Part shown: one piece after another, positions 16,024-27,645 of the stretch
Numbering within the stretch: the stretch's first letter is position 1
Layout: each line of letters begins with the position of its first letter
DNA from: Thermithiobacillus tepidarius DSM 3134
Lineage (GTDB): Bacteria; Pseudomonadota; Gammaproteobacteria; Acidithiobacillales; Thermithiobacillaceae
Length of the DNA stretch: 64,000 bases
NCBI RefSeq assembly: GCF_000423825.1
Contig: NZ_AUIS01000003.1
Location: 62,001-126,000, forward strand
Direction of reading: 5' to 3'
The notes under the pieces: generated by a model
Told to the model about the DNA's origin: nothing
Database searches by the model: none
What the model saw: the letters and a program-made list of their open reading frames with translations, nothing else
Made by a program: the position numbers and the translations under genes

Positions 16024-17990
<1,967 letters not shown>

Positions 17991-17993
17991 TGC

Positions 17994-18311
17994 TTACTCC
18001 TTCGTGCTCGCCACCAGCTTCTGCAGCTCGCCCTGGCGGAACAGGTCGGTCATGATGTCGCTGCCGCCGATGAACTCGCCGTTGATGTACAGCTGCGGAA
18101 TGGTCGGCCAGTTGGAGAACTGCTTGATGCCGTCGCGGATCTGCGGATTCGCCAGCACGTCCACCGCCTCGAAGTCGGCGCCGCACTGCTGCAGGATCTG
18201 CACGGCCCGCGCGGAAAAGCCGCACTGGGGCATGCGCGGGTTGCCCTTCATGTAGAGTACGATCTTGTGGTGCTCCACCTGCTCCTTGATCAGCTCCTGA
18301 ATGTCTTTCAT
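17994..18311 (-). CDS. grxD: Monothiol glutaredoxin (Grx4 / GrxD type)
   Basis: A CGFS-type glutaredoxin that binds and passes on 2Fe-2S clusters, usually together with a BolA protein. The 105-residue product has CGFS at 30-33, the cis-Pro region NWPTIPQLYINGEFIGGSDI, and no second active-site Cys. It lies next to the bolA-family gene, which supports the Grx-BolA partnership. Confidence 0.96.
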   Translation of the reverse strand: MKDIQELIKEQVEHHKIVLYMKGNPRMPQCGFSARAVQILQQCGADFEAVDVLANPQIRDGIKQFSNWPTIPQLYINGEFIGGSDIMTDLFRQGELQKLVASTKE

Positions 18312-18365
18312 CTCTGCATTCTCCTGCGTGAGTGAGCCCAGGACCGGGCCGGTTGGCGCCGAGGC

Positions 18366-18611
18366 CTAGCGCGCTTGCTGCATCGCCTCCCACTGGGCGG
18401 GGGTCAGGGTGCGCATGGACAGGGCGTGGATCTCTTCGCGCATTTTATCGCCCAGGGCGGCGTAGACCAACTGATGCTGACGGACCATGCTCAGCCCTTC
18501 AAAGGCGTCGCTCACGATGATGGCCTCGAAGTGATGGCCGTCGCCCGCCACCTGCGCCTTGGCGCCCGGCATTCCCTGTTCGATCAACTGCTTAATGGTC
18601 TCTGGCTGCAT
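18366..18611 (-). CDS. BolA/IbaG-family iron metabolism protein
   Basis: An 81-residue BolA-fold protein, closest by context to IbaG (mla - ibaG - murA order in enterobacteria). The conserved helix-turn region reads GDGHHFEAIIVSDAFEGLSMVRQHQLVYAAL; the paired His residues can ligate a shared 2Fe-2S cluster with glutaredoxin. The ATG at 18611 is the family start. It lies upstream of grxD in the same transcript. Confidence 0.93.
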   Translation of the reverse strand: MQPETIKQLIEQGMPGAKAQVAGDGHHFEAIIVSDAFEGLSMVRQHQLVYAALGDKMREEIHALSMRTLTPAQWEAMQQAR

Positions 18612-18706
18612 CCTTGCACCTTTCACTGGTTGGAGTCCAAGTTCCGGCGTCTTTCGAACCGTCCTTATACCGTGCTTGGACCCGGCCCGCAACCCGTGCC
18701 GCCAGC

Positions 18707-19534
18707 CTAGTGGCGCAGCTTGTAGCCGCGGCGCAGCAGGATCAGGGCGATGGCCGCCAGCAGCAGGAAGAACACGGAAGCGATCAGCACGCTGCGCAGG
18801 ACCGGCACGTCGCTATGGCCGAAAAAGCCGTAGCGGAAGCCGTCGATCATATAGAAGAACGGATTGAAGTGGGACAGCAGCTGCCAGAAAGGCGGCAGCG
18901 AATGGATGGAGTAAAACACGCCCGACAGGAAGGTGAGCGGCATGATGATGAAGTTCTGAAAGGCGGCGATCTGGTCGAACTTGTCGGCCCAGATGCCGCC
19001 GATGATGCCGAGCGCGCCGAGGCTGGCGGCGCCCAGCAGAGTGAAGAGCAGCAGGGTCAACGGATGGGCGACCGGCAAATGCACATAGAAGATGGCAAAC
19101 AGATAGATGGCCGAGCCCACGGCGACGCCGCGCACCACGCTGGCGGCGGTCATGGCGGCGAAGAATTCCCAGTGGCTCAGCGGGGAAAGCAGCACGAAGA
19201 CGATGTTGCCGGTCACCTTGGACTGGATCAGGCTCGACGAGCTGTTGGCGAAGGCGTTCTGCAGGATCGACATCATCATCAGGCCGGGGATGATGAAGGC
19301 CGCGTAGTCCACGCCCGGATACACCGGCGGCCGTCCCGACATGACGTGGGAAAACACCAGCAGGTACAGCAAGGCGGTGACCAGCGGCGCGAGCACGGTC
19401 TGGAACCACACCTTGGAAAAGCGCAGCAGCTCCTTGCGAAAGAGCCCGTAGGCGGCGCGCCAGTTGAAGCGCGGCGGCTCGGCGGCGCGGTACTCGCGCG
19501 CGGCGCGCATGGGCTTGCTCTTGTCCGGGCTCAT
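18707..19534 (-). CDS. ABC-2 type transport permease
   Basis: Membrane subunit of an ABC exporter. The 275-residue product has six hydrophobic segments and the ABC-2 signature around LTFLSGVFYSIHSLPPFWQ. The sequence resembles the YadH-like group. The ATG at 19534 overlaps the ATPase gene stop (ATGA). The substrate is unknown; position beside mla and murA suggests an envelope lipid or polymer but does not prove it. Confidence 0.92.
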   Translation of the reverse strand: MSPDKSKPMRAAREYRAAEPPRFNWRAAYGLFRKELLRFSKVWFQTVLAPLVTALLYLLVFSHVMSGRPPVYPGVDYAAFIIPGLMMMSILQNAFANSSSSLIQSKVTGNIVFVLLSPLSHWEFFAAMTAASVVRGVAVGSAIYLFAIFYVHLPVAHPLTLLLFTLLGAASLGALGIIGGIWADKFDQIAAFQNFIIMPLTFLSGVFYSIHSLPPFWQLLSHFNPFFYMIDGFRYGFFGHSDVPVLRSVLIASVFFLLLAAIALILLRRGYKLRH

Positions 19535-20442
19535 TCCCGCTCTCCCAGGAGACTCACGAACACGTCCTCCAGATCCGGCTCCTGCACCTTCAGGTCGAGA
19601 ATGTCCACGTCCAGGGCCTGCAGGGCGAGCAGGATTTCGCTCACGCGCCAGGTCCGGCTGTCGTACTGCAGGGTCAGGGCCTCGCCGGTGTGGCTGCGGA
19701 CCAGCGGCTTCAAGAGCTCCGGCACCACCACGACCGGCTGGGCGAAGACCACGGTCAGGGTCTTCAGGGGATTGCGTGCCAGCAGGGCCGCCTTGCTGTC
19801 GCAGGCGATGAGCTGGCCCTTGCGCAGGATGCCGATGCGGTCGCACAGGGCCTCGGCCTCTTCCAGATAATGGGTGGTGAGGACGATGGTGTGGCCTTGG
19901 CCGTTCAGGCGGCGCACGAAGCGCCACAGGCTCTGGCGCAGCTCCACGTCGACGCCGGCGGTGGGCTCGTCCAGGATCACCACCTGCGGCCGGTGCACCA
20001 GCGCCTGGGCGATGAGCACGCGCCGCTTCATGCCGCCCGACAGGGCGCGCATGTTGGTGTTGGCCTTGTCGCTCAGATCCAGCTCCGCCAGGAGCTCGTC
20101 GATCCAATCGTCGTTGCGGCCCAGGCCGAAATAGCCGGACTGCAGGCGCAAGATCTCCCGCACGCTGAAGAAGGGATCGTAGACGATCTCCTGGGGCACC
20201 ACCCCCAGTGCCCGGCGGGTCAGGCGATAGTCCTGCTCCACGTCGAAGCCGAGCACCCGGGCCGCGCCGCTGTCGCGCCGCACGAGCCCGGCCAGGACGT
20301 TGATCAGGGTGGACTTGCCGGCGCCGTTGGGGCCGAGGAGGCCGAAGAACTCGCCCGGCTCGATGCGCAGGTCCACCCCGGCGAGGGCCTGGAAGCCATG
20401 ATACGACTTGCGCAACGCCTGGACTTCAATGGCGGGGGTCAT
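19531..20442 (-). CDS. ABC transporter ATP-binding protein (YadG-like)
   Basis: Energising subunit of the exporter whose permease follows. The 303-residue product has Walker A GPNGAGKST, signature LSGGMKRRVLIAQAL, Walker B VVILDEPTAGVD and an H-loop TTHYLEEAE. Its C-terminal extension of about 80 residues is typical of ABC-2 drug/lipid exporter ATPases. It lies 18 bases after mlaB and may be part of the same transcript. Confidence 0.94.
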   Translation of the reverse strand: MTPAIEVQALRKSYHGFQALAGVDLRIEPGEFFGLLGPNGAGKSTLINVLAGLVRRDSGAARVLGFDVEQDYRLTRRALGVVPQEIVYDPFFSVREILRLQSGYFGLGRNDDWIDELLAELDLSDKANTNMRALSGGMKRRVLIAQALVHRPQVVILDEPTAGVDVELRQSLWRFVRRLNGQGHTIVLTTHYLEEAEALCDRIGILRKGQLIACDSKAALLARNPLKTLTVVFAQPVVVVPELLKPLVRSHTGEALTLQYDSRTWRVSEILLALQALDVDILDLKVQEPDLEDVFVSLLGERE

Positions 20443-20460: not shown

Positions 20461-20796
20461 TCAAGCGACTGCGTCGAAGGACAGCACGTCCTGCAGATGG
20501 TAGAGCCGCACCAGATCCCGCAGCTTCGCCGGCAGGCCGGCAAAAAACGGCGCCGGGCCGCCTTGGGCGACACTCTGCCGCGCCAGCTCGACGAGCAAGG
20601 CCAGGGCGGCGCTGTCGGCCTGCACCACCCCGCCCAGATCCACCCGCACCGGCGGGCGCTCTTGCACGGCCGCCTGCAGGCGGGGCAGCAAGTCGCCCAG
20701 GGTCCAGACCGTCAACACGCCCTGCAGGCGCAGCACGGGCTCGCTGCCCACCGTCGCCCAACTGAAGTCGGCGGCGGGCCGCCGGGTCTCGCTCAC
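20461..20796 (-). CDS. mlaB: STAS-domain phospholipid transport protein MlaB
   Basis: Cytoplasmic STAS protein that stabilises the MlaFE ATPase complex. The 111-residue product shows the STAS core LQGVLTVWTLGDLLPRL and the regulatory site VQADSAALALLVEL. A GTG start at 20796 overlaps the mlaC stop (GTGA); no ATG gives a sensible protein. Last mla gene in the operon. Confidence 0.88.
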   Translation of the reverse strand: MSETRRPAADFSWATVGSEPVLRLQGVLTVWTLGDLLPRLQAAVQERPPVRVDLGGVVQADSAALALLVELARQSVAQGGPAPFFAGLPAKLRDLVRLYHLQDVLSFDAVA

Positions 20797-21422
20797 CCGG
20801 CCTCCTTGGCGCGCTGCTGCAGGCGCTGCAGGAGCGCATCGATGCCCTGCTGGCTGGCGATGCGCCCGAAGGAGGCGCGGTAGTTGGTGACCAGGCTGAC
20901 GTTGTCGATGGTGACGTCGTAGACCTTCCAAGCCGAGCCCGTCCAGTAGAGGCGGTAAACGATGGGCACGTCGGCCTCGTTGCCGTTCTGGCGCACCACC
21001 ATGCGCACCAGCGCGTCGCCGCTGGCCGGATCGATGGTGGTGCCGCTCACCTCGATCTTCTGGTCGCGGTAATTGGTCAGCGAATTGGAGTAGGTGCGCA
21101 CCAGCAGGTCGCGGAACAGCTGCACGAACTGCTTCTGCTGGGCGGGGGTCATGGTCCGCCAGTTGCGCGCCATGACCCATTGCGACATGCGGTTGAAGTC
21201 GAAGTGGGGCAGCACGATCTCGTCCACCAGCTTCAGCAGGGCGGCCCGCCGCTCGGGCCCCTGGTAGTTCTTTTCCTTGAGCGCCTTGATCACCTGGTCG
21301 GAGGTCGATTTGACCATGACCGCGGGGTCCGGCCGCTGCGCGGCCCAGCCGGGACCCGCCAGAGCCAGGCCGACGGCCAGCACCGCCAAGAAGCGCGCGA
21401 AATACGACACGTTGATGTGCAT
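20793..21422 (-). CDS. mlaC: Periplasmic phospholipid-binding protein MlaC
   Basis: Shuttles phospholipids between outer and inner membrane. The 209-residue product has a signal peptide (MHINVSYFARFLAVLAVGLALAGP... cut near WAA) and the MlaC/Ttg2D features LVDEIVLPHFDFNRMSQWVMARNW and WKVYDVTIDNVSLVTNYRASF. The ATG at 21422 was preferred over upstream codons because the signal peptide starts there. It is separated from the TolC-like gene by 123 bases. Confidence 0.93.
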   Translation of the reverse strand: MHINVSYFARFLAVLAVGLALAGPGWAAQRPDPAVMVKSTSDQVIKALKEKNYQGPERRAALLKLVDEIVLPHFDFNRMSQWVMARNWRTMTPAQQKQFVQLFRDLLVRTYSNSLTNYRDQKIEVSGTTIDPASGDALVRMVVRQNGNEADVPIVYRLYWTGSAWKVYDVTIDNVSLVTNYRASFGRIASQQGIDALLQRLQQRAKEAG

Positions 21423-21545
21423 GTGCAACCCTTTTGTCTTCCGTGAATAGCCAATGATATCCGGTATCAAGCACAGCCAAATCGGCCAAGCAGCGGAGTA
21501 TACCGAAATTCAACGGCCCAGGCGGCGGACCGTTGACCCGGCGCC

Positions 21546-22898
21546 TCAGTGATACTGGCCCGTCACCAGATCCAGCCTGGCCGCCGCCATGTTGTAGTCG
21601 TTCAGCGCGCGCAGATAGTCGGCGCGGTTCAGGGCATAGCCCTGCAGGGCGCGCATCACTTTTTCGCCGTCACCCACGCCCGCCTCGAAATCGGCATAGC
21701 TGGCGACCATCCAGCGCCGGGCGGCCGCGCTGCCCTGCTCCAGCGCTTTGACGGCCTGCTGCTGGGCCTGGTACTCGTTGTAGGCCTCCGCCACCTCGAA
21801 GGGAATGCCCTTCTGGGCGAAGCTGGACTTCAGGTTCAGGGCGTCCAGCTCCGCCTGCGCGCCGGCCACGCGGGCGTCGGTGACCGCGCCCTGCCACTGC
21901 CAGCGCAGGCCCAGAATGGGCGTGGCGCCGTACTGGTGGAAGGGGTCGTAGAGGAAGGGGTTCTTCAGGTCGTCGCGGCGGCCGGCGTGGCTTACGACGC
22001 CGACCACGCCCGCGTACACGTCCGGATAGAGCTCGGCGCGCCGTGCCGCCACCAGCGCGCGGCGCGCGCGCAAGCCGGCCTCCAGCTGCGCGGCTTCCGG
22101 ACGGCTGTTCAGCGCCTGCAGCTGCAGCTCACCCAGAGCCTTGCCGTCCAGGGTCCGATCCGCCACCGGGGTGATGTGCGCCTCGGCCAGCTCCAGCGGT
22201 TCGCTGGCCGGGATGCCCACCAGCAGGCGCAAGCCCTGGGCCGCCGTGTTCTCCACCGCCCGCGCCTGGGCGATGAACTTCTCCACCTGCGCCCGGCCGG
22301 CCTGCAATTGGTAGAGATCCGCCTGGGTGGCCTGGCCGCTGCCGGTATCGAGCCAATTCTGCACCAGCTTTTCGGCGTCGTTGACCTTTTGCTGCACCTC
22401 TTCCAGCATGGCCCGGGTGTCGCGGGCGGTCAGGTAGCCGTAGTAGGCCTTCTTCACTTCCATGACGGTCTGGCCGCGGCGCAGGCGCACGTCGCCGCGG
22501 CGCACGTCCGCCTGGCCCTGGGCGGCGCGGGCGTAGTTTTCGATCTTGCCGAAGGTGAAGAGCGGCTTAATGATCTGGAACTGCAGGAACTCCCAGTCGG
22601 ACAGGCCGTCCACGTCGTAGGCGTCGCGGCGCAGGGTCGTGGTGCCCGGCTCGAAGATGTCGCCGTGCTTGGCGGTGGTCAGGCCGATGAAGGCATTGGC
22701 GTTGATCATCAGCCCCCGGTGGCCGAGGGCCTCGTCGATGAGGGCGCGCGCCGCGTCCACCAGCTTCTCGCTTTCCGCCACGCGCGGGTCCTGCTTCAGG
22801 GCGCGCTCCACGGCTTGATCCAGCGTCAGGGGCGCCGCCTGGACGGAAGCGGACAGCAGGACACCCACCAGGCCCGCCAATAAGCTGCGCTTCTTCAT
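21546..22898 (-). CDS. TolC-family outer membrane channel protein within the mla operon
   Basis: An outer-membrane efflux-type protein of 450 residues with a signal peptide (KKRSLLAGLVGVLLSASVQA) and two coiled-coil OEP repeats, visible as ALKQDPRVAESEKLV and LNSRPEAAQLEAGLRARRAL. The family forms trimeric channels that span periplasm and outer membrane. It overlaps mlaD by 4 bases (ATGA), so it is translated with the Mla import/export system. In several related operons the position between mlaD and mlaC holds mlaA; no MlaA is encoded here. Confidence 0.9.
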   Translation of the reverse strand: MKKRSLLAGLVGVLLSASVQAAPLTLDQAVERALKQDPRVAESEKLVDAARALIDEALGHRGLMINANAFIGLTTAKHGDIFEPGTTTLRRDAYDVDGLSDWEFLQFQIIKPLFTFGKIENYARAAQGQADVRRGDVRLRRGQTVMEVKKAYYGYLTARDTRAMLEEVQQKVNDAEKLVQNWLDTGSGQATQADLYQLQAGRAQVEKFIAQARAVENTAAQGLRLLVGIPASEPLELAEAHITPVADRTLDGKALGELQLQALNSRPEAAQLEAGLRARRALVAARRAELYPDVYAGVVGVVSHAGRRDDLKNPFLYDPFHQYGATPILGLRWQWQGAVTDARVAGAQAELDALNLKSSFAQKGIPFEVAEAYNEYQAQQQAVKALEQGSAAARRWMVASYADFEAGVGDGEKVMRALQGYALNRADYLRALNDYNMAAARLDLVTGQYH

Positions 22899-23392
22899 AG
22901 TCCCTCCCCGCCTGCCTGGGAACCCGGACTCGCCGGCGTTTCCGCGGCCTTGCTGTATAGGAATTGGCCGATGATCTGCTCCAGGGAAATGGCGGACTGG
23001 GTCAGGCTGATCCGCCCGTTGGGCTTGAGGTAGTCCGGAGAACCGCCCGGCTCCAGGGTGACGTACTGCTCGCCCAGCAGGCCGGCGGTGTAGATGCTCG
23101 CGCCCGTATCGGTGGGCAGCTTGATGCCGGGCTCGATCTCCATCCGGACCACGGCCAGATAGGATTGGGGATCGATGCTGATGGACTGCACCCGGCCCAC
23201 GGGCACGCCGCCCATCTTCACAGGCGCCTTCACCTTCAGCCCGCCGACGTTGTCAAAGGTGGCCACGATAGGATACCCTCCCCGCGTCCCCAGGTCAGCC
23301 AGGTTGCCCACCCGCAATGCCAGGACGACCAGGGCGGCCAATCCCAACAGTACGAATATCCCTACCCACCAGTCTACCGCCTTACGTTCCAT
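22895..23392 (-). CDS. mlaD: Mla MCE-domain substrate-binding protein MlaD
   Basis: A membrane-anchored MCE protein that forms a lipid-conducting ring on MlaFE. The 165-residue product has one N-terminal membrane helix (WWVGIFVLLGLAALVVLAL), one MCE domain (VATFDNVGGLKVKAPVKMGG to LLGEQYVTLEPGG) and the hydrophobic C-terminal helix SLEQIIGQFLY that lines the pore in relatives. It starts 73 bases after mlaE. Confidence 0.95.
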   Translation of the reverse strand: MERKAVDWWVGIFVLLGLAALVVLALRVGNLADLGTRGGYPIVATFDNVGGLKVKAPVKMGGVPVGRVQSISIDPQSYLAVVRMEIEPGIKLPTDTGASIYTAGLLGEQYVTLEPGGSPDYLKPNGRISLTQSAISLEQIIGQFLYSKAAETPASPGSQAGGEGL

Positions 23393-23465: not shown

Positions 23466-24266
23466 CTAAAACATCAACGCCGTCAGCACGAAATCCAGCG
23501 CCAACACGGCCAGCGCCGAACCGACCACGGTACGCGTGGTGGCCCGGCCGACGCCCTCGGCGGTCGGCTCCGAACGGTAGCCCTGCCAGGTGGCGATCCA
23601 GGTCACCACCAGGCCAAAGCACAGGCTCTTGATCATGCCGCTGAGGATGTCGTCGTAGAGGCTCACGTTGGCCTGCATCTGCGACCAGAAGGCGCCCTCG
23701 TCCACCCCCATCAGGGGCACGGCGATCAGGTAGCCGCCCCAGACGCCCACCACGTTGTAGATGGCCGCCAGGATGGGCATGGCGATCACGCCGGCCAGCA
23801 GGCGCGGCGCGACTACCCAGGCAAAGGGGTTGACGGCCATCATCTCCATGGCGGCCAGCTGCTCCGTGGTTTTCATAAGGCCGATCTCCGCCGTCAGCGC
23901 CGAGCCCGCGCGCCCGGCGAAGAGCAGCGCGGTCAGCACCGGCCCCAGCTCGCGCACCAGCGACAGGGCCACCACGGTGCCGAGCGACTCCTCGGCGCCG
24001 AAGCGCACCAGCGTATTGTAGCCCTGAAAGCCCAGCACCATGCCGGTAAACAGGGCCGCCACCACCATCAGCAGCAAAGACAGCACGCCCACCGCGTAGA
24101 CTTGCAGGCTCAGCTGCCGCAGGCTGAAGTGCCGCTGGAAGACCGCCGCGAGCACCAGCAACAGGAAGCGGGTGCTGGTGCCCAGATTGGCGAGCACCTC
24201 CAGCAGCCAGTGGCCGAAGCGGGGAATGGCGTCCCAGGATTGGGGCTTACGGGGCTGGCCGGGCAT
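23466..24266 (-). CDS. mlaE: Phospholipid ABC transporter permease MlaE
   Basis: Inner-membrane permease of the Mla system. The 266-residue product has the MlaE signatures FTGMVLGFQGYNTLVRFGAE, LVRELGPVLTALLFAGRAGS and AEIGLMKTTEQLAAMEMMAV, with five membrane helices. It overlaps mlaF by 20 bases. Confidence 0.97.
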   Translation of the reverse strand: MPGQPRKPQSWDAIPRFGHWLLEVLANLGTSTRFLLLVLAAVFQRHFSLRQLSLQVYAVGVLSLLLMVVAALFTGMVLGFQGYNTLVRFGAEESLGTVVALSLVRELGPVLTALLFAGRAGSALTAEIGLMKTTEQLAAMEMMAVNPFAWVVAPRLLAGVIAMPILAAIYNVVGVWGGYLIAVPLMGVDEGAFWSQMQANVSLYDDILSGMIKSLCFGLVVTWIATWQGYRSEPTAEGVGRATTRTVVGSALAVLALDFVLTALMF

Positions 24267-25071
24267 TCAGCAAATCCTGCTCGTAATTCAGCGGCGCCGC
24301 GTAGTGGAAGGGCACCGGGCCGTCCGGGGCGCCGTCGAGGAATTGCCGCACCAGCGGCGAGCGGCTGTCCCGCAGCGCCGCGGGCGTGCCCTCGCCGATC
24401 ACGCGGCCGTTGGCCAGGATATAGGCGTAGTCGGCGATGCTCAGGGTCTCCGCCACGTCGTGGCTGACCACCACGGAGCTGGCGCCCAGGGCCTGGTTCA
24501 GGCGCTTGATCAGCGACACCACCACGCCGAGGCTGATGGGATCGAGTCCGGTAAAAGGCTCGTCGTAGAGGATGAGATCGGGATCCATGACCACGGCGCG
24601 GGCCAGCGCCACCCGCCGCGCCATGCCGCCCGACAGCTGGGACGGCATGAGCGCGTGGGCGCCGCGCAGGCCCACCGCCTCCAGCTTCATCAGCACCAGG
24701 GTGCGCAGGACCGGCTCGGACAGGCGCGTGTGCCGGCGCAGGGGAAAGGCCACGTTTTCGAAGACGGAAAGGTCGGTCAGTAGGGCGCTGTGCTGAAACA
24801 GCATGCCCATGCGCTTGCGCGCCTCGTACAATTCCTGCTGGCCCAGGCTGGCCAGCGCCACGCCGTCGAGCAGCACCTCGCCCCGCCGCGGCCGCAACTG
24901 GCCGCCCATGAGCTGCAGCAGCGTGGTCTTGCCGGTGCCGCTGCCGCCCAGGATGGCGACGATCTGCCCGCGCGGAATGCGGATATTCAAATCGGACAGA
25001 ATGGCGCGGTCAGCGCGGAAAAAGCCGAGGTTCCGTATTTCCAGAATGTTATTGTTGTGAGCCGGGGACAT
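24247..25071 (-). CDS. mlaF: Phospholipid ABC transporter ATP-binding protein MlaF
   Basis: The ATPase of the Mla transporter. The 274-residue product has Walker A GGSGTGKTT, signature LSGGMARRVALARAV, Walker B LILYDEPFTGLDP and H-loop VVSHDVAE. The ATG at 25071 has a GAGGGG site; the longer frame to 25107 runs into promoter DNA. First gene of the mla transcript. Confidence 0.97.
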   Translation of the reverse strand: MSPAHNNNILEIRNLGFFRADRAILSDLNIRIPRGQIVAILGGSGTGKTTLLQLMGGQLRPRRGEVLLDGVALASLGQQELYEARKRMGMLFQHSALLTDLSVFENVAFPLRRHTRLSEPVLRTLVLMKLEAVGLRGAHALMPSQLSGGMARRVALARAVVMDPDLILYDEPFTGLDPISLGVVVSLIKRLNQALGASSVVVSHDVAETLSIADYAYILANGRVIGEGTPAALRDSRSPLVRQFLDGAPDGPVPFHYAAPLNYEQDLLNARPAP

Positions 25072-27102: not shown

Positions 27103-27645
27103 ATGCCAAGCAATCACAGCGCCGCCGCCCTCTGGCACAACCTGGTCCTGGAAGCCGAAGAGCGCCTGGGGACCCGGCTCGGCGAGGACGTCGAAAGCTA
27201 TCTCGTGTTCATGCTCATGCGCTACCTGCGCGATGCCGGCGTGGTCCGCCGCATCGTCGCGCTGGCCTTCCTGGAGGGCATGCAGAAGCAAGGCCGCGCC
27301 CGCGCGGAAGCCATGCAGAGCCTGGGCGACCAGTGCCTGCTCTTCGCCGGCTTCTTCCCGGAGCAGGCCCGCCGGCGCCGAGTCAGCCTGGATTACTTCG
27401 TGCAGATGGGCCGCAGCGCCTACGGCCAACTGGACGCACAACCCATCTTCACCGCCCTGGCCCGGCATTTCGTGCCGCTGATGGACGTCCTGGCGCAGAT
27501 CCGCGCCGCCAACCCCCACCATCGGGCGCCTTCCCTGCTGGACCTGCAGGAACTGTGGGAAAGCACGGGCAGCCGCTACGCCGCCAAGCGCCTCCAGGAA
27601 GAAGGCATCCTGCCGCAGGCGATGCCGAGCCGGAGGCGGCACTAG
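27103..27645 (+). CDS. Conserved-looking hypothetical protein
   Basis: A 180-residue, probably cytoplasmic, mostly helical protein rich in Leu, Ala and Arg, with a strong AGGAG site before the ATG. It begins MPSNHSAAALWHNLVLEAEE and ends in a basic tail. I see no membrane helix, signal peptide, cofactor motif or catalytic signature. It stands alone between two REP clusters and is not an obvious partner of pmbA. I do not recognise the family; no function is proposed. Confidence 0.75.
   Translation: MPSNHSAAALWHNLVLEAEERLGTRLGEDVESYLVFMLMRYLRDAGVVRRIVALAFLEGMQKQGRARAEAMQSLGDQCLLFAGFFPEQARRRRVSLDYFVQMGRSAYGQLDAQPIFTALARHFVPLMDVLAQIRAANPHHRAPSLLDLQELWESTGSRYAAKRLQEEGILPQAMPSRRRH

Follow-up and report, generated by a model that had tools for sequence, protein, structure and literature searches.

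In E. coli, the Mla phospholipid system is made up of MlaFEDB, MlaC, and MlaA with OmpC. How lipids enter and leave the outer membrane, and in which direction Mla moves them, are long-standing questions that have been studied almost only with MlaA systems. An mlaA gene inside the mla operon has been reported for Neisseria, and no OEP is named in the body text of the 2017 MCE gene-neighbourhood survey (PMC5561183).

The nearest report found is that of Veillonella parvula, where the genes run mlaEFD-tolC-tamB and MlaA, MlaC, and MlaB are missing (Grasekamp 2023, PMC10665443). The MlaD of Veillonella is long and has its own outer-membrane barrel, TolC has no role in the authors' model, and the phylum is without a Lol system (PMC10665443). 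The phylogenomic part of the same paper ties short MlaD to Proteobacteria, describes MlaA, MlaB, and MlaC as mostly proteobacterial, and, in that part, does not mention TolC as a replacement. A third variant is the chimeric Mla-Pqi system Mpc of Brucella (PMC12436622). No description of a TolC gene in an mlaC-bearing operon was found in our literature search, which covered mainly open-access journal papers.

Here, we describe an Mla system of six parts in which a TolC-type protein is found in place of MlaA; the system is widespread in its class and reaches beyond it.

The mla operon and its junctions

The window (the whole stretch of 64,000 nucleotides from Thermithiobacillus tepidarius DSM 3134 that was analysed) carries on its minus strand the genes mlaF-mlaE-mlaD-TOL-mlaC-mlaB; after these come an ABC ATPase/permease pair, a bolA-like gene, a glutaredoxin gene, and murA. 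We use "TOL" for the gene between mlaD and mlaC and for the orthologous family of the TolC-like protein that it encodes. The features are as follows.

24247..~25071, minus strand: mlaF, ATPase; ORF open from 25107, probable ATG at 25071
23466..24266, minus strand: mlaE, permease (Pfam and NCBIfam)
22895..23392, minus strand: mlaD, short single-MCE-domain inner-membrane protein of 165 aa; 4-base overlap (ATGA) with TOL at its end
22895..22898, minus strand: overlap of the mlaD stop and the TOL start, ATGA; probable translational coupling
21546..22898, minus strand: TOL, TolC-family outer-membrane channel gene; 450 aa, signal peptide without a lipobox; proposed MlaA replacement
22317..22319, minus strand: TOL codon 194 (Asp), at the place of TolC Asp153; kept in 81/83
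21651..21689, minus strand: TOL codons 404-416, turn between the two long C-terminal helices (TolC helix 7/8 tip); holds K413 and R416
20793..~21422, minus strand: mlaC, periplasmic lipid shuttle; ORF open from 21470, probable ATG at 21422
20461..~20796, minus strand: mlaB, STAS protein; GTG start, 4-base overlap with the mlaC stop
18707..20442, minus strand: ABC ATPase and ABC-2 permease pair after mlaB; neighbours that the arrangement does not require
16664..18692, minus strand: bolA-like gene, glutaredoxin, and murA; usual 3' neighbours of the mla operon

Pfam matches across the operon are to ABC_tran, MlaE, MlaD, OEP, MlaC, and STAS_2, and MlaF, E, D, B, and C are thus all encoded together in the window. 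MlaE passes the NCBIfam model perm_MlaE_1 (385 bits, cut-off 315) and MlaD passes OM_asym_MlaD (184 bits, cut-off 135); MlaC and MlaB match their Pfam families, with scores below the E. coli-based cut-offs of NCBIfam. TOL matches OEP (PF02321) in two repeats with 102.2 bits (cut-off 22). It passes neither the model for type I secretion TolC (TIGR01844, 62.7 bits against a cut-off of 225.15) nor that for NodT-type efflux channels (TIGR01845, 44.8 bits against 210.05).

The first-pass annotation, made from the letters of the DNA, had proposed this gene order with a 4-base overlap between mlaD and the TolC-family gene, and the Pfam and NCBIfam matches together with the ATGA at 22895-22898 bear it out; the stretch it marked (21546-23392) coincides with TOL plus mlaD. 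Among 79 homologous loci, 53 offer a start codon that would give exactly the same overlap. The mlaC/mlaB junction is likewise coupled, by a GTGA overlap. The TOL stop lies 123 bases from the probable mlaC start; the tight coupling of TOL is therefore to mlaD and not to mlaC. That annotation had also named a separate RND pump that uses the channel, together with a normal mlaA gene elsewhere, as what would refute its reading. No adaptor or RND pump gene lies between mlaF and murA, and about 15 further OEP proteins (counted as distinct places) are open to the pumps of this genome.

Comparison with described systems

The locus shares with E. coli MlaF, MlaE, a short single-domain MlaD, MlaC, MlaB, and the order of the locus through to bolA and murA, but it has no MlaA and places a TolC-family gene between mlaD and mlaC. 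The mlaA-containing operons (the Neisseria operon as reported, and our locus L192) resemble it in encoding an outer-membrane component alongside the transporter genes, and L192 even has it in the identical slot; in those operons, however, the component is the lipoprotein MlaA, whereas here it is a TolC-type beta-barrel/alpha-barrel channel, and no sequence relation between the two was seen.

Like that of Veillonella, as described, the locus comes without MlaA and has a tolC homologue immediately downstream of the genes for the mla transporter. It differs in that MlaD is short, MlaC and MlaB are present, and an apolipoprotein N-acyltransferase is encoded in the window; with an MlaD of 165 aa and with MlaC, this is not a long-MlaD transenvelope system of the Veillonella type. 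Brucella Mpc, from its description, is another MCE variant that does without the usual outer-membrane part of Mla, but one bridged by MCE/Pqi-type proteins rather than by a TolC homologue.

The first-pass annotation had offered two readings of the locus: a continuous channel, or a different outer-membrane partner for lipid transfer. The second is strongly supported by the lack of mlaA, the near exclusion of the two genes over 369 genomes, and the fixed slot (below). A continuous MlaD-TOL duct was rejected as the main reading, since MlaC is present at every locus long enough to show it and MlaD is a short single-MCE protein.

Absence of MlaA from the genome and its family

A search with the MlaA family (PF04333), positive in both E. 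coli and Caulobacter, returned no match in the genome of the window (2.96 Mb, 43 contigs, listed as 100% complete), so that the check for mlaA elsewhere, advised by the first-pass annotation, came back empty. This genome is therefore not one with a canonical Mla system, in which MlaA is found in the genome. Nor was MlaA found in the one relative with the same family code. In the sister family, which makes up the rest of the order, 28 of 29 genomes have MlaA and the single miss is a genome of 61% completeness; TOL occurs in 2 of the 31 genomes of the order, both in the window's own family. TOL itself does not belong to the MlaA family: neither the window protein nor any of the 60 A2 members matches PF04333, and in all of them OEP (PF02321) alone was found.

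TOL as an orthologous family in a fixed slot

TOL was found in 44 of 369 sampled genomes of the class, that is, in about one in eight, spread over 21 family codes with identities of 40-74%. All 44 matches have E <= 3.3e-89 at a cut-off of 1e-25, and this clear score gap sets the TOL orthologues apart from the many other OEP proteins. In the 30 class loci whose gene order was read, mlaC follows TOL in every case and mlaD precedes it in 29; the sole exception is L053 (genome G225).

A second, named collection was scanned with an alignment of 24 TOL proteins, which gave 184 relatives, of which 80 contigs were kept. Here mlaD lies no more than 100 bases before TOL in 78 of the 79 contigs that reach that far, and mlaC no more than 200 bases after it in all 78 testable contigs. 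Since the position of TOL recurs in 78 of 79, the arrangement is not due to chance. The one interrupted locus (L138:6690-8920) has two genes between mlaD and TOL, a LysR-like gene on the opposite strand (named from a reading of its sequence) and a 3-hydroxyisobutyrate-dehydrogenase-like gene; its genome also has MlaA.

Carriers in the named collection include Thiobacillus thioparus DSM 505 and Sulfuriferula multivorans TTN, along with assembled genomes called Sulfuricella, Sideroxydans, Sulfurimicrobium, Chromatiaceae, Ectothiorhodospiraceae, and Candidatus Tenderia; judged by their names, many belong to sulphur- or iron-oxidising lineages. In a draw of 398 genomes from the whole phylum, TOL turned up in five: that of the window, another from the same class (48% identity), and three from other classes (36, 30, and 29% identity). 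All four newly drawn genomes have the order mlaF-E-D-TOL-mlaC, and OEP, MlaD, and MlaC were confirmed by Pfam in those of the new loci that were tested.

Lipoprotein anchoring of TOL was considered and rejected, as a simple pattern for a lipobox-like motif matched none of the 24 A1 proteins. The annotation of TOL as plain efflux proteins hides the whole arrangement from view.

Near mutual exclusion of TOL and MlaA

Among the 369 class genomes, MlaC is present in 342 and MlaA in 287. Four genomes have both TOL and MlaA, 40 have TOL only, 283 have MlaA only, and 42 have neither. Genomes with TOL therefore lack MlaA in 40 of 44 cases, compared with 42 of 325 genomes without TOL (odds ratio 0.015, Fisher p = 5e-26, a value that overstates the case because the test treats related genomes as independent). 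At least 17 of the 42 genomes with neither gene are also without MlaC. The existence of these 42 genomes shows that MlaA can be lost without TOL.

Some of the evidence is less open to kinship, namely the two sister families of the order and three further comparisons. Within family f76, two genomes (G104 and G231) have TOL without MlaA and one (G333) has MlaA without TOL. MlaA is missing from all four newly drawn TOL genomes of the phylum, three of which are from other classes. It is also missing from 44 of 50 genomes behind the named contigs, T. thioparus DSM 505 and S. multivorans TTN included, a count that covers 50 of the 80 loci and mostly metagenome-assembled genomes for which completeness was not given.

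Both genes are present in 4 of the 44 class genomes and in 6 of the 50 contig genomes; two of the latter are G130 and G225 again, with identical coordinates, which leaves eight distinct genomes with both. In none of the six contig genomes does an mla gene lie within 1.5 kb of MlaA. The co-presence is accounted for in G112 only: next to its TOL-type operon, this genome has a second operon (L201:4497-7969) of mlaE-mlaD-mlaA-mlaC with mlaF divergent, so that its two Mla systems each come with a separate outer-membrane gene. G157, which also has a TOL-type mla operon, carries an RND pump, an OEP gene, a phospholipase A1 gene (PldA-type), and mlaA in a row on one strand (L199:5972-12499). In G130 an RND gene is near MlaA without being adjacent to it, and in G225 MlaA is far from the mla genes; the group of G225 has the interrupted operon as well.

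The same locus in MlaA-type genomes

Twenty MlaC regions from genomes with MlaA and without TOL were read, and none contains TOL. Seventeen show mlaD and mlaC, and the other three have MlaC without mlaD nearby. In 16 of the 17 neither TOL nor MlaA stands between the two genes, and the locus runs mlaF-E-D-C-B-bolA-murA, which is otherwise the order of the window. In the seventeenth, L192 (genome G136), the order is mlaE-mlaD-mlaA-mlaC, that is, mlaA occupies the slot of TOL; the statement in the first-pass annotation that some operons have mlaA between mlaD and mlaC thus holds for L192 and for the second operon of G112.

On a tree of MlaFED (46 rows, quick method), TOL and MlaA types interleave, with 10 changes of type, at least five of them forced by well-supported branches. 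The interleaving indicates that the inner machine is the same and that its outer partner has changed several times, gain and loss of a partner being indistinguishable on this tree. MlaC was considered as a partner-specific protein, with a null result: its own tree has 7 label changes, against 7 for MlaE and 11 for MlaD, and it separates the types no better than they do. As the MlaC tree is not grouped by partner, there is no sign in it of a partner-specific MlaC surface.

Predicted structure and periplasmic gate

The AlphaFold model of TOL (single chain, 60 sequences; pLDDT 88.6, pTM 0.79) has four strands and four long helices. Aligned with TolC (1ek9), it gives Z 27.3 and an rmsd of 3.1 over 390 residues. 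Ranks 1-22 of the structure comparison have Z 26.1-29.3, and the best solved relatives by Foldseek are TolC, ST50, OprN, CusC, and OprM (TM 0.71-0.79, 12-20% identity). By sequence, the only related PDB entries are CusC/SilC (E 3.5e-5 to 1.4e-4). TOL is thus predicted to have a standard TolC protomer fold, with four barrel strands and long paired helices, and from this fold a trimer located in the outer membrane would be expected. Its periplasmic gate, however, is altered.

In TolC, Asp153, Tyr362, and Arg367 are described as the primary gate and Asp371/Asp374 as a cation-selective second gate (PMC8277102). We aligned 83 family rows to E. coli TolC, drawn from two collections in which some genomes may occur twice. 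Asp153 is kept in 81 of them and Gly365 in all 83. The place of Arg367 is Glu in 75 rows, with Gly in the window protein; that of Asp371 is Lys or Arg in 71, Ala in 9, Asp in 2, and Gln in 1. The window protein has Lys413 and Arg416 at the places of Asp371 and Asp374. In 12 other OEP proteins of the same genome, the Asp371 place is never Lys or Arg (Asp in 6, Glu in 2). Three remote TOL homologues have Glu there, and for this reason the basic gate was rejected as a feature of the family at large; it characterises the near members alone.

TOL resembles the tripartite-pump factors TolC, OprM, OprN, and CusC in its two OEP repeats and its whole fold (TM 0.74-0.79, Z 25-29). It is unlike them in its low identity (15-20%), in the altered gate (Asp371 to Lys/Arg and Arg367 to Glu in most rows), and in being encoded with mla rather than with an adaptor and a pump.

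A probable TolC-type partner for Mla, and the alternatives

TOL is probably the outer-membrane partner that replaces MlaA in an MlaC-dependent Mla phospholipid system. We favour this reading because of the gene order and coupling, the absence of MlaA, the mutual exclusion, the orthology, the fixed slot, the TolC fold, and the changed gate. MlaFEDB, kept as the inner-membrane machine, would drive lipid exchange at the inner membrane, and MlaC, kept as the soluble carrier, would shuttle the lipid. TOL would be the outer-membrane station in the place of MlaA, a TolC-type trimer that receives lipid from MlaC or hands lipid to it. Judging by fold and conservation, the helical barrel could offer MlaC a place to dock far out in the periplasm, and the ring of basic residues around its mouth would be a good match for anionic lipid head groups or for an acidic partner. 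MlaC would presumably dock at the tip of the barrel with lipid as the cargo, and the lipid might enter or leave by the lumen or along the barrel wall, in either direction of transport.

More tentatively, TOL may itself serve as a channel for lipid. It would then be a TolC-type trimer, its gate reversed and basic, that exchanges outer-membrane phospholipid with MlaC and MlaFEDB, possibly inwards, in a system whose partner has been swapped between MlaA and TOL several times. We regard this fuller version as possible rather than likely.

The arrangement suggests that lipids can be moved at the outer membrane by a second route. With an unrelated channel standing in for MlaA and with MlaC and MlaFEDB unchanged, this natural system separates the role of the inner machine from that of MlaA. 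TolC-family proteins would gain a job outside efflux and secretion and, if the lipid-channel reading is true, lipid traffic would be added for a family known only as outward ducts.

Three other explanations should be weighed. The best of them, which we consider unlikely, makes Mla an exporter: MlaFED-MlaC and TOL would together act as a tripartite pump of the ABC type, driving lipids or hydrophobic compounds out through TOL, with the MCE hexamer as the adaptor hexamer and membrane asymmetry kept by other means. An MCE hexamer and a TolC trimer fit by symmetry, the TolC fold is the fold of export ducts, and Asp153 at the first tip is almost always kept (81/83); the direction of E. coli Mla is itself described as disputed (PMC10665443). 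No continuous duct is evident, however, with a short MlaD without a helical hairpin and an MlaC that is always retained, and the exclusion between TOL and MlaA points to the job of MlaA instead.

It is less likely still that TOL works for a different system, be it a drug pump, type I secretion, or the adjacent ABC pair, is merely co-expressed with mla, and has nothing to do with the loss of MlaA. OEP proteins are promiscuous, an ABC ATPase/permease pair does follow mlaB in the window, and eight distinct TOL genomes retain MlaA. But the operon has no adaptor gene, TOL scores far under the type I secretion and NodT cut-offs, and the slot is held down to 29% identity. Moreover, 27 of the 63 TOL loci lack the pair between mlaC and murA, and the MlaA-type loci L176, L191, and L192 also have it; its absence from those 27 led us to reject TOL as a part of it.

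That the exclusion is mostly shared ancestry, a few lineages having by chance TOL and no MlaA with no functional link, is very improbable: the genomes are related and the labels do cluster on the MlaFED tree beyond shuffles (8 of 500 as low), but there are 21 family codes, at least five forced changes, the swap inside f76, and MlaA in none of the four new TOL genomes of other groups, and a bystander gene leaves the fixed slot unexplained.

Further observations

For window MlaC (20793-21470), the better score comes from the hopanoid-associated HpnM model, at 100.9 bits (cut-off 160.1), against 65 bits (cut-off 195) from the model of E. coli MlaC. On the plus strand of the window, after pmbA, there is a 180-residue open frame without a Pfam match (27103-27645). 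The ABC pair (window 18707-20442), which lies between mlaB and bolA, recurs in 36 of the 63 TOL loci, as well as in some loci of the MlaA type. The ten sister-family loci read (L023-L032) have mlaA directly after an MlaC-like gene, an order unlike mlaD-mlaA-mlaC, and the MlaC-like protein beside it has 22-25% identity to window MlaC.
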